From assembly GCA_903916255.1 (NCBI GenBank), contig CAIWVW010000106.1, positions 1-48,350 on the forward strand: a stretch of 48,350 nucleotides of DNA. The letters run 5' to 3'. The position numbers were made by a program, and so were the translations under genes. Shown here piece by piece: positions 592-31,070 of this stretch (positions are counted from its first letter, which is position 1; each line of letters opens with the position of its first letter). The DNA is from an uncultured Bacteroidota bacterium (GTDB lineage Bacteria > Bacteroidota > Bacteroidia > JABEUT01). A model generated the notes under the pieces. It was not told the origin of the DNA. It made no database searches and was given only the letters and a program-made list of their open reading frames with translations.

Positions 592-3297
592 TTACAGTTT
601 CGCTTTCACTTCTACCTGCTCGTACCCTTCAATAATATCGCCTACGTGAATATCATTAAAACCCGAAATATTCAAGCCGCAGTCATAACCTGATACAACT
701 TCCTTCACATCATCTTTAAAGCGTTTTAGCGAAGCCAAATCGCCGGTATGCACCACAATTCCATCATGGATAACACGGATGCGGGTATTGCGGGTAATTT
801 TTCCGGTAAGCACCATACAGCCTGCCACGTTACCCACTTTGGTAACAGCAAATACTTCGCGCACTTCAAGGTTGCAGACAATCTTTTCCTGTACTTCTGG
901 GCTCAACATACCTTCCATTGCGGTTTTCACCTCTTCAATGGCATCATATATGATAGAATAGAGACGGATATCGATTTGTTCCTGTTCGGCTATCCTGCGC
1001 GCATTTTGCGATGGGCGAACCTGGAAACCAATAATAATGGCATTGGATGCGGAGGCTAAAAGCACATCTGATTCGGTAATGGCGCCAACACCCTTGTGTA
1101 CAATATTTACTTGTATTTTAGGGTTAGCCAGTTTCAATAATGAATCGGACAATGCTTCAATAGAACCGTCAAAGTCACCTTTCACAATTACGTTCAGCTC
1201 TTTAAAGTCGCCTATGGCCAAACGTCTTCCAATTTCATCAAGGGTAATATGCTTGCGTGTTTTCAAACCTTGTTCACGTTGCAATTGCAAACGCTTATTA
1301 GCAATTTCACGCGCTTCCGATTCACTGGCCACTACGTGGAACTGGTCACCCGCCTGTGGAGCGCCGTCCAAACCTAATATCAATGCCGGCATAGCAGGGG
1401 TTGCAGCTTCAATAGGCACGTTACGTTCATTATGCATAGCTTTCAGCTTACCGCTGAAACAACCTGCCACAATAACATCGCCTACGTGCAGGGTACCGCC
1501 TTCTACCAGTATGGTAGCCACGTATCCTTTACCTTTGTCTAATGCCGATTCGATAACAATACCGTGTGCTTTTTTATTCGGGTCGGCTTTCAATTCCAAT
1601 AATTCTGCTTCCAGCAAAACCTTTTCCAAAAGCTCGTGTATATGTATTCCTTTTTTGGCAGATATTTCTTCCACCTGGTATTTGCCACCCCAATCTTCTA
1701 CCAAAATGTTCATTTGGGCCAGCTCTTCTTTAATCCGGTTTACGTTAGCGCCTTCCTTATCTATCTTGTTAATAGCAAAAATCATTGGTACGCCCGCAGC
1801 CTGTGCGTGATTAATAGCCTCTTTTGTTTGAGGCATTACACCATCATCCGCAGCTACCACAATAATGGCTAAGTCGGTTGCTTGTGCACCGCGGGCACGC
1901 ATAGCGGTAAACGCTTCGTGGCCGGGAGTATCAAGGAACGTAATCTTTTTACCATTTTCCAAGGTTACGTTATATGCACCGATGTGCTGTGTTATACCAC
2001 CCGCTTCACCGGCAATAACGTTTGTCTTTCTTATATAATCGAGTAAGGATGTTTTACCGTGGTCAACGTGGCCCATAACAGTAACAATGGGAGAACGGGG
2101 AAGCAAATCTTCCTCTTTGTCCTCTTCTATTCTTACCGCTTCCTGAACATCAATACTTACAAATTCCACTTTATGGCCGAATTCTTCCGCCACAATGGAA
2201 ATGGTTTCCGCATCTAACCGTTGGTTGATTGAAACGAACAATCCCAAACTCATACAGGTTGAAATAACATCCTGTATAGGAACGCTCATCATCTTTGCCA
2301 ATTCATTGGCCGAAACAAATTCAGTTACTTTTATAACTTTTCCTTCCGCTGCAATTTGTTCGGCTTCCTGCTGGGCTTTTTCATTCATCAAATCGCGTTT
2401 CAAACGGCGGTACTTGGCCGCTTTTGATTTGCCGGAACCGCTTAAGCGGGCCAATGTTTCCTTAATCTGATTTTGAATTTCTTCATCCGTAAGTTCAGGG
2501 CGTTGTTCACGCGGCCTGGAGGCTCCGCCAGGGGCACCCGGTTTGCCCGGTGCTGAAGGGCGTGCTGCCTGATTAATATCTTCCTTGTTATATTCTTTTT
2601 TGAATATGCGTTTTCTCTTCTTTCCGGCTGCGCCCGGGCCTCCGCCTTTTGGGGCGGTATCATTATTAGATGAAGCTACAGGTTTTTGGGGCAGTTCTAT
2701 TTTACCAATAATAGTAGGGCCTTCCAGTTTGCTGAACTTAGTAGGAACAAAATCTTCTTTTATTCTTTCTACAGCCGGAGGAACTTTTACTACAGGCGAC
2801 TCAACAACGGGAGGTTTTACTTCTTCTACCGGCTTTACCTCTTCTTTCTTGGTTTTTGCAGGTTTCTTAGGTTCTTCGGCTTCCTTTTCTTTAACCGGAG
2901 CTTTCCCTTTTTTAGGAGATTCGGGCAATTCTATTTTGCCAGTAATCTTAGGGCCTTCCAGTTTTACTTTTTCACGGGCAGGCTCAACCGGAGGCGCTGC
3001 AACTACCGGAGGAGCTTTTACAACGGGTGTTTCAACAACAACCGGCGGAGTTTTTTTAGCTTCTTCTTCAGCAAAAATGGTTTCCTTTTCTTTCTGAATA
3101 AGTATGGCCTCGTCCTTGGTTTTCTTTTCGCCTTCGTACTCTTTTCTTACCAATGCATACTGGGCATCGGTAATTTTGTGGTTGGGGTTCGACTCCACCT
3201 TATGCCCGTTCGCGTTCAGGAAATCGCTGAGCGTTCCCACACTCACGTTGAGTTCTTTTGCAACTTTACTTAATCTATGTATGCCTTCTCCTGCCAT
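592..3297 (-). CDS. infB: Translation initiation factor IF-2
   Basis: This 901-residue cytosolic GTPase positions initiator tRNA on the 30S subunit and promotes subunit joining. It opens with the IF2_N helical module ([17 protein letters not shown]), followed by a long low-complexity Lys/Glu/Pro/Val linker (about 50-290) of the kind expected in Bacteroidota. The G domain has GHVDHGKT at 409-416, DTPGH at 456-460 and NKID at 510-513, followed by the beta-barrel and C-terminal domains. The start at 3297 is supported by the conserved [11 protein letters not shown] opening. It lies 74 bp after nusA in the same direction, and that gap contains an inverted tandem repeat rather than an obvious promoter, so co-transcription is likely. 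All G motifs are intact. Confidence 0.98.
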
Positions 3298-3371: not shown

Positions 3372-4646
3372 TTATCCTTCAAATTCTTTCCGTAAGATAC
3401 TCTGTACTTCTTTTATTGTTTCTTCTTCCAGGTCGGTCCGCTTTGCCAAATCTTCCACAGTAAGTTCCAATACGCTCTTCGCTGTATCGCAACCAATGCT
3501 CTTTAAGGCATCGAGTATCCAACCTTCTATTTCATCTCCGAATTCATCCAACGGAACGTCTTCGGTATAGTTTTCCGCATCCCTGTAAACATCTATTTCG
3601 TAGCCTGTCAAACGTGCCGCCAAACGGATATTATGTCCGCCTTTACCAATAGCAAGTGATACCTGGTCGGGTTTCAAATACACATCGGCATGTTTGGTGG
3701 CTTCATCAATTTTTATGCTGGTAATTTTAGCCGGATTAAGTGCACGGGTAATAAACAGGGTAGGGTTGGTAGTGAAGTTGATTACGTCGATATTTTCGTT
3801 TTTCAATTCCCGAACGATTCCGTGAATACGTGAACCTTTAACGCCTACGCAAGCTCCCACCGGGTCGATACGGTCATCATACGATTCTACGGCCACCTTG
3901 GCTCTTTCGCCCGGTTCACGTACAATCTTCTTAATAGTAATAAGCCCGTCGAATATTTCAGGCACCTCCATTTCAAACAATCTTTCCAGGAATGAAGGAG
4001 ACGTGCGAGACAGGGTAATTACCGGATTTGTTCCATTCATTTCTACCGAAAGCACTACCGCACGGATAGTATCGCCCTTCTTAAAGAAGTCGGATGGGAT
4101 TTGTTCTGTACGCGGTAAAATAAGTTCGTTGCCTTCATCATCCATAATAAGGATTTCCTTTTTCCAAATTTGGTAAACCTCGCCGCTGATAATATCGCCT
4201 TCTTTATCTTTATATTTTTTGAAAAGTGTTTCTTTTTCCAGTTGTGATATGCGTGAACTCAGGTTTTGGCGCACAGCTAAAATGGCCCTGCGGCTGAAAT
4301 CCATAAAATTTACGGGTTCCGAAACATCTTCGCCTACTTCAAAATCAGGCTCAATCCGAATAGCTTCGGAATATGCAATTTGTGTATTCGGGTTTTCAAT
4401 TTTATCGTCTTCCACAATCACGCGGTTTCTCCATATTTCCACGTCGCCCTTGTCCGGGTTAACGATGATATCGAAGTTTTCATCTGTTTCAAAACGCTTG
4501 CGCAGCATAGCTTTAAACACATCCTCAATAACGTTCATGAGGGTGGCTTTATCGATACTCTTGATTTCTTTAAATTCGGAAAATGACTCAATAATATTTA
4601 AGTGGGTAATTTCCTTTAGTTCAGCTACGTTTGCCTTCTTTGCCAT
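3372..4646 (-). CDS. nusA: Transcription termination/antitermination factor NusA
   Basis: NusA binds RNA polymerase and nascent RNA and modulates pausing, termination and antitermination. The 424-residue protein has the expected order: N-terminal polymerase-binding domain (about 1-125), S1 domain (about 140-205) and two KH domains (about 235-375) with the KH signatures GACVGVKGSRI and SLAIGKGGHNI. A short C-terminal helical segment follows, which is usual for Bacteroidota NusA and shorter than the two acidic repeats of E. coli. The ATG at 4646 follows a roughly 125-nt leader with a consensus promoter and a potential pseudoknot. infB follows downstream; rimP, the usual upstream partner, is not here. 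Confidence 0.97.
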   Translation of the reverse strand: MAKKANVAELKEITHLNIIESFSEFKEIKSIDKATLMNVIEDVFKAMLRKRFETDENFDIIVNPDKGDVEIWRNRVIVEDDKIENPNTQIAYSEAIRIEPDFEVGEDVSEPVNFMDFSRRAILAVRQNLSSRISQLEKETLFKKYKDKEGDIISGEVYQIWKKEILIMDDEGNELILPRTEQIPSDFFKKGDTIRAVVLSVEMNGTNPVITLSRTSPSFLERLFEMEVPEIFDGLITIKKIVREPGERAKVAVESYDDRIDPVGACVGVKGSRIHGIVRELKNENIDVINFTTNPTLFITRALNPAKITSIKIDEATKHADVYLKPDQVSLAIGKGGHNIRLAARLTGYEIDVYRDAENYTEDVPLDEFGDEIEGWILDALKSIGCDTAKSVLELTVEDLAKRTDLEEETIKEVQSILRKEFEG

Positions 4647-4680: not shown

Positions 4681-4727
4681 TCAAGCGAGTTATATAAACA
4701 ACAAAGGAGGTCGCTTGAGCCCTCCTT
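4681..4727 (-). promoter_or_regulatory. Candidate H-type pseudoknot in the nusA leader
   Basis: Read on the minus strand, AAGGAGG (4727-4721) pairs with CCTCCTT (4710-4704), and the hairpin loop TCAAGCGA (4718-4711) pairs perfectly with TCGCTTGA (4688-4681). Connectors are 2 nt (GC), 0 nt and 15 A/U-rich nt, the geometry of a classical H-type pseudoknot. It lies between the nusA promoter and start codon and ends 34 nt before the ATG. The arms carry an SD-like AAGGAGG and a 16S-tail-like ACCTCCTTT. Pairing is seen directly; a regulatory role is inferred. Confidence 0.55.
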
Positions 4728-4777
4728 GCAAGTACTTAATTAATGGGAGAATCCTATCCAAATCACATAATCCGGTG

Positions 4778-4785
4778 CAAAGATA
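4778..4785 (-). promoter_or_regulatory. nusA-infB promoter -7 box (TATCTTTG)
   Basis: TATCTTTG matches the Bacteroidota TAnnTTTG box. It implies a transcript start near 4773 and a leader of about 125 nt ahead of nusA. Confidence 0.6.
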
Positions 4786-4856: not shown

Positions 4857-4903
4857 AATCTTTAACAGTAACACTGAGAGCACTATTTCCGTTGATAACC
4901 AAA

Positions 4904-5731
4904 ATGAAAAGACTTTTTCTTGTTTTAAGTTCAGTATTACTGGGGGTAGTTTCACTATCTGCCCAAAAAACCTCTGAAATAGGAATATTTCTCGGAGGTT
5001 CCTTTTACCTGGGCGATTTGAACCCCAATGGGTTCTTTAAGTTTACCCAACCCGCCTACGGATTAATTTACCGCTATAATATCAATAACCGCTTTTCTTT
5101 CAGGGGTAATGTATTAATTGGTGAAGTTACGGCTTATGATAACCAATCAAGCTCGGCATATCAACAGCAACGCAACCTGAATTTCAAGTCGCCAATTGAT
5201 GAAGTTTCGGGACAATTTGAGTTCAACTTTTTCGAGTATGAAATAGGCAACCCGAAATATAACTTTAGCCCCTATATTTTTGGTGGATTTGGCCTTTTCA
5301 GGATGAATCCGGAAGGAAAAATAGGCGACCAATGGGTTGATTTACAGCCGCTGCATACCGAAGGGCAAGGAACACAATATAATCCCAATGCCCCGTACCA
5401 TTTAATTCAGCCTTGCATACCATTTGGCATTGGTATAAAAACAAACTTCTCGCCCAGCATTTGCCTGTCCATTGAATGGGGTTTGCGTAAAACATTCACC
5501 GGGTATATAGATGATGTGAACGGTGTATATCCTAATGCGGCGCAATTAGCGGAGCAGGCAGGGCCCAATGCTTCACTGGCATTGCAAATGTCGAACCGCA
5601 GCAATATTCCATCGGCGGCATTAACCGGCACACAGCGCGGCAACGGTAAGGACGATTGGTATTCCTTCGCCGGAATAATGCTCTCCTTCCATCCCAAGCA
5701 TATCGTGAATGAGTGTTTCAGCTATTTTTGA
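4904..5731 (+). CDS. PorG-like outer-membrane beta-barrel protein (DUF6089 family)
   Basis: The 275-residue protein has a cleavable signal peptide (MKRLFLVLSS, ending in SLSAQ) and a beta-barrel body. The signature EIGIFLGGSFYLGDLNP after the signal peptide is typical of DUF6089/PorG. PorG is the outer-membrane protein that anchors the PorK/PorN ring of the type IX secretion system. The window also encodes several T9SS cargo proteins and a PorE-like protein, which fits this role. The ATG at 4904 is chosen over the in-frame ATG at 4805 because it starts a clean signal peptide and follows a promoter box at 4849. The gene is monocistronic and ends in a strong palindrome shared with the convergent neighbour. 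A related non-T9SS DUF6089 barrel is the main alternative. Confidence 0.75.
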   Translation: MKRLFLVLSSVLLGVVSLSAQKTSEIGIFLGGSFYLGDLNPNGFFKFTQPAYGLIYRYNINNRFSFRGNVLIGEVTAYDNQSSSAYQQQRNLNFKSPIDEVSGQFEFNFFEYEIGNPKYNFSPYIFGGFGLFRMNPEGKIGDQWVDLQPLHTEGQGTQYNPNAPYHLIQPCIPFGIGIKTNFSPSICLSIEWGLRKTFTGYIDDVNGVYPNAAQLAEQAGPNASLALQMSNRSNIPSAALTGTQRGNGKDDWYSFAGIMLSFHPKHIVNECFSYF

Positions 5732-30990: not shown

Positions 30991-31007
30991 AGGTGAATTA
31001 CAAAAAC

Positions 31008-31043
31008 AAAAAAGGGATACCCCCAATCGAGGATTCCCTTTTT
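31008..31043 (-). terminator. Rho-independent terminator of the small lipoprotein gene
   Basis: On the minus strand, AAAAAGGGA pairs with TCCCTTTTTT across a 17-nt loop and ends in a T-run, 28 bp after the 31071 stop. Confidence 0.8.
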
Positions 31044-31070
31044 ATACTAATAAATTGCTTTCTTAAAAGC

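Follow-up and report, generated by a model that had tools for sequence, protein, structure and literature searches.

Introduction

RimP is a 30S maturation factor, and its gene is normally the first of the rimP-nusA-infB operon. NusA strengthens weak intrinsic terminators. The rimP-leader, known from other phyla, was the most widespread attenuator in the survey of Naville and Gautheret (2010), and NusA was proposed as its effector (PMC2965389). For Bacillus subtilis, it is described as established that NusA stimulates termination in the leader of nusA (Mondal 2016, as cited in PMC12288461). The metY-rimP-nusA-infB leader of Escherichia coli carries two terminators, t1 and t2, between the promoter/tRNA and rimP (PMC6511841). 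The effect of NusA and NusG is greatest where hairpins are weak and U-tracts interrupted; in B. subtilis, NusG-dependent pausing has the motif TTNTTT (PMC8060035). Within the Bacteroidota, a transcriptome study of Flavobacterium psychrophilum lists a rimP 5' element that has no Rfam match (PMC9723704). The literature we searched, which covers few subscription journals, contained no description of the phylum-wide hairpin, the rimP losses or the pseudoknot presented here.

The leader upstream of nusA

The window is the whole stretch of DNA that was analyzed, 48,350 nucleotides from an uncultured Bacteroidota bacterium. The nusA-infB genes and the elements in front of them are as follows.

4785-4778, minus strand: TATCTTTG, a Bacteroidota -7 promoter box of the TAnnTTTG form, assigned from the sequence
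4727-4721 and 4710-4704, minus strand: stem 1, AAGGAGG with CCTCCTT, perfectly paired around a 10-nt loop and exact in the sequence
4720-4719, minus strand: 2-nt connector, GC
4718-4711 and 4688-4681, minus strand: stem 2, TCAAGCGA (inside the loop of stem 1) with TCGCTTGA, exact in the sequence
Between the end of TCAAGCGA and the start of CCTCCTT, minus strand: 0-nt connector
4703-4689, minus strand: 15-nt connector
4692-4703, minus strand: T-rich tract TGTTGTTTATAT, an interrupted U-tract that follows stem 1 and forms part of the 15-nt connector
3372..4646, minus strand: nusA, with its ATG at 4646 (Pfam NusA_N, KH_5 and S1)
592..3297, minus strand: infB, encoding IF2 (Pfam IF-2 and IF2_N)

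The leader, which is presumed to be transcribed, begins a few nucleotides 3' of the TATCTTTG box. The distance to the nusA ATG is 34 nt from the end of stem 2 and 74 nt from the end of the AAGGAGG arm. The arms, connectors, promoter box and distance to the ATG lie letter for letter where the original prediction had placed them on the minus strand, and its naming of nusA and infB was confirmed by Pfam. The T-tract has six T in eight nucleotides and is broken (TGTTGTTT). A TTGTTT inside the T-rich tract (4692-4703, minus strand) is of the TTNTTT type, and may be there by chance in T-rich DNA. The divergent neighbor of nusA (4898-5731, plus strand) encodes a DUF6089 outer-membrane beta-barrel protein. 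DUF6089-like sequence is also found upstream of rimP in congeners, and the neighborhood seems to be conserved.

We read this element as an attenuator in the nusA-infB leader, in which stem 1 and the T-tract descend from a hairpin of the rimP-leader type and to which a pseudoknot between the loop and a downstream segment has been added. We put the probability of this reading at roughly 60%. It builds on the arms themselves, on a hairpin found across the phylum, on its covariation and on the losses of rimP.

A leader hairpin across the phylum

Eighty Bacteroidota loci were fetched using nusA, and in nearly all of them rimP lies directly upstream of it. In these, a hairpin sits between a TAnnTTTG promoter and the start of rimP; it reads GAGGGGAC-loop-GTCCCCTC or is closely similar, and a TTTTATT-like run comes after it. 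Hairpin and T-run precede rimP in the loci outside the window's genus in which rimP was found. Of the 92 leaders examined, 85 have the TAnnTTTG box ahead of the hairpin, and the spacing from promoter to hairpin is mostly 10-30 nt. Hairpin and T-run together, a few tens of nucleotides past a promoter, have the anatomy of an attenuator. Directly upstream of the hairpin, seven loci carry a tRNA-like sequence (tRNA-Gln-like by eye; L054, L058, L061, L064, L078, L087 and L093).

Covariation was measured on the hairpins of 39 relatives, which align almost without gaps. Here 95.8% of the cells are paired, and double changes occur at six of the eight pairs. The covariation score is 0.238, compared with 0.125 for shuffled alignments, and all measures of covariation are above those of the shuffles and of the slid controls. 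Outside the genus the homologous arms read GGGGAC/GTCCCC, and GGAGG/CCTCC is kept across the genus.

A covariance model was built from relatives outside the genus, with zero members of the window's genus, and run on 119 genomes. Of the 122 distinct matches listed, 32, each from a different genome, have RimP 26-138 nt downstream on their own strand; eight of the ten best are among these. The remaining matches, which were not checked one by one, mostly resemble ordinary terminators, many of them on both strands. The window itself holds a bidirectional terminator-like hairpin at 30998-31052, which the leader model scores on both strands and which serves as an ordinary terminator for comparison.

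Within the genus, the four congeners that have rimP (G001, G004, G005 and G008) carry AGGAGG, a loop of 9-12 nt and CCTCC, followed by a T-run, just before the start of rimP. In these four, as in G006 and G010, the hairpin is followed by T6. The model from outside the genus finds the congener leaders weakly, at 18.5 bits for G006 and at 14-15 bits for G001, G004, G008 and G010. It does not report the window leader under default filters; with the filters off, its best match there coincides exactly with stem 1 and has a low score of 10.6 bits. The proposed homology of stem 1 is based on where it lies and on the link through the congeners, and not on a direct sequence score. On these grounds, stem 1 is the local form of the Bacteroidota rimP-nusA-infB leader hairpin. 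The idea of a conserved, structured and probably regulatory leader before nusA-infB is supported: across the phylum, stem 1 has homologues that covary.

Loss of rimP with retention of the hairpin

The RimP_N profile had no match in the genome of the window (G000), in G002 or in G006, which are 97-99% complete, nor in G007. A RimP protein of the same genus used as the query had no match in G000, G002 and G007, and gave background only in G006 and G010. No rimP was seen in the nusA operon of either G007 or G010. In all five of these genomes the hairpin stands before nusA, with non-coding sequence alone between them. The NusA tree needs two label changes to account for the five congeners without rimP, with moderate support at the forks that matter, so one or two losses of rimP would be placed within the genus. 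In G006 (L117), about 260 nt of non-coding DNA lie between the leader hairpin and nusA, where rimP would be. This stretch holds a long inverted repeat, GCTCGTAGGACATTTTGC...GCAAAATACCTGTACGAGC, and looks like a small palindromic insertion.

RimP_N also had no match in four genomes of the family f16 and in one of f25, and in both families a promoter and hairpin precede nusA without rimP. In at least two families besides that of the window, rimP appears to have been lost in separate events, with nusA-infB and the leader hairpin kept. Because the hairpin is kept after the loss of rimP, its target is likely to be nusA-infB. This suggests a control of NusA itself and would fit a feedback of NusA on its own attenuator, as in B. 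subtilis; retention alone does not give the identity of the effector.

A probable second stem in three sister species

The four segments of the window leader follow the order S1-S2-S1'-S2' with feasible connector lengths, which is that of an H-type pseudoknot. In 4000 dinucleotide shuffles, no version of the leader gave an H-type pair with stems of at least 7 and at least 8 bp, and no second pair of that size was found on either strand of the whole window. The two-stem pairing is therefore unlikely by chance, as had been predicted. In nested folding the stems are near-equal competitors, with pair probabilities of about 0.43 for stem 1 and about 0.56 for stem 2. Both could coexist as a pseudoknot, but the 2-nt connector across an 8-bp stem would be tight. 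The hairpin of stem 1 is weak (-9.6 kcal/mol, 10-nt loop), and was missed by a terminator scan with a loop limit of 8.

When the hairpin loop is paired with the 60 nt downstream of it, the best duplex falls in the identical place in G000, G002 and G007. Against shuffles, its p value is 0.001 in G000, 0.021 in G002 and 0.178 in G007. Relative to G000, the last pair of stem 2 is changed from A-T to G-C on both sides in G002, where one pair is broken. The fourth pair is changed in the same way in G007, where two pairs are broken. Counted by hand, 21 of the 24 stem 2 cells are paired over the three species, with two compensatory double changes. All three share an almost unchanged 15-nt connector, in which the T-rich tract is invariant or nearly so. 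No comparable feasible pairing of the loop with downstream sequence was found in G006, G010 and the congeners that have rimP. A loop pairing in G010 (p 0.001) was rejected; there the loop pairs with the T-run itself, which leaves almost no connector and makes a pseudoknot infeasible. An upstream anti-terminator (TTCTCC/GGAGGG) was also considered. As read from the alignment, it is possible in G000 and G002 and not in G007. As an RNA pairing, stem 2 is likely, with moderate support that comes from three sister species. The original prediction had named compensatory changes in both stems as a check. They are clear for the homologue of stem 1 in the 39 relatives, and the picture is mixed for stem 2, with two double changes against three broken cells in three species.

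That G006, G010 and the congeners with rimP lack the pairing, that three of 24 cells are broken and that G007 reaches a p of only 0.18 would all agree with a plain attenuator hairpin in stem 1 and with a stem 2 that arose as a complementarity by chance and was passed on to three close relatives. We regard this as possible, though not probable, given the shuffles (0/4000), the identical position of the duplex in three species and the location of the two double changes at different pairs.

A second alternative is that the element acts mainly after transcription. The pseudoknot would then either bind a factor, such as NusA or a ribosomal protein, or stabilize the nusA-infB mRNA, and in this way set its translation or decay; the terminator activity would have been lost with the broken T-tract. 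We consider this unlikely. The tract is interrupted only in the three species with the pseudoknot and is T6 in the other six congeners, and the nearly invariant connector and the compensatory changes in stem 2 would also fit. However, the pseudoknot is 34 nt upstream of the ATG, beyond the usual initiation footprint, and it is present in three species only.

It is very improbable that TCAAGCGA and TCGCTTGA are the DNA operator of a dimeric regulator rather than an RNA stem. They are two perfect inverted 8-mers, 30 bp apart from center to center, but the arms change jointly between species with the pairing preserved, and they fall within the leader, which is presumed to be transcribed, where they overlap the conserved hairpin. 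We discard the suggestion of the original prediction that one of the arms of stem 1, AAGGAGG or CCTCCTT, acts by mimicry in competition for the 16S tail: the arms are exact SD and anti-SD heptamers and GGAGG/CCTCC is kept throughout the genus, but in the Bacteroidota examined outside it the homologous arms, GGGGAC/GTCCCC, keep the pairing and not the SD-like letters, and 74 nt separate the end of the AAGGAGG arm from the start codon, so that coincidence is the simplest reading of these letters within the genus.

Proposed mechanism

On the attenuator reading, transcription would start at the TATCTTTG promoter and reach a weak terminator about 50 nt on, where a share of the polymerases would be released. 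Plentiful NusA would probably raise this share, and the operon would damp its own expression. The weak hairpin and interrupted U-tract of the window are the same features at which NusA and NusG act most (PMC8060035). With the loss of rimP in the lineage, the hairpin would have been left in front of nusA. In the sub-clade, the hairpin loop would pair with a segment 15 nt downstream and form an H-type pseudoknot after the polymerase has read through. Termination, feedback by NusA, and the formation and role of the pseudoknot are the predicted parts of this scheme.

Polymerase must pass the T-tract before it synthesizes the 3' arm of stem 2, and thus the pseudoknot could not block termination there and would act on read-through transcripts only. 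This ordering follows from the sequence; an effect on the translation or stability of nusA is what we infer. The pseudoknot would most likely hold the leader of read-through transcripts in a defined fold, ahead of a nusA start that is open and A/T-rich. We advance only tentatively, as an unlikely idea, that after the loss of rimP the leader passed from a plain attenuator hairpin to a pseudoknot switch, in which the loop of the terminator is captured by downstream sequence after read-through, adding a second, post-transcriptional layer of control on nusA-infB.

The rimP-leader attenuator would be extended to the Bacteroidota, in a form that Rfam does not detect. The repeated loss of rimP with the hairpin kept is a natural experiment, which suggests that the element serves nusA-infB over rimP. 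Self-control of NusA by attenuation becomes directly testable in a phylum with little-studied transcription termination. The locus may also be an example of an attenuator leader that has gained a pseudoknot.

Comparison with known systems

The Rfam family RF01770 (rimP) belongs to the same operon and position as the window hairpin. At its gathering score of 47 bits, it had no match over the cut-off in 40 Bacteroidota genomes including that of the window, and none of the matches listed was at the window leader. An Rfam scan of the window, the leader and 12 relatives gave no convincing family.

The E. coli metY-rimP-nusA-infB leader and some Bacteroidota share a tRNA or tRNA-like sequence, which in the latter is directly before the hairpin; the window leader differs in having no tRNA, and one hairpin rather than two. 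In B. subtilis, as described in the citing paper, the nusA operon likewise has a leader with a weak intrinsic terminator, whereas the response to NusA that is shown there is one that we infer for the window.

Like the rimP-leader, the Bacteroidota element has a short G-rich/C-rich hairpin and a T-run between the promoter and the first gene of the operon, and no larger sensor domain. The window hairpin lies between TATCTTTG and nusA-infB, and that of the congeners before rimP. The arms of the window are G-rich and C-rich, but read GGAGG/CCTCC in place of the strict GGGc/gCCC. The window further differs in its 10-nt loop and interrupted T-tract, in having no rimP and in the added pairing of the loop with downstream sequence. 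Judged by sequence and location, the Bacteroidota hairpin corresponds to the rimP-leader attenuator of PMC2965389.
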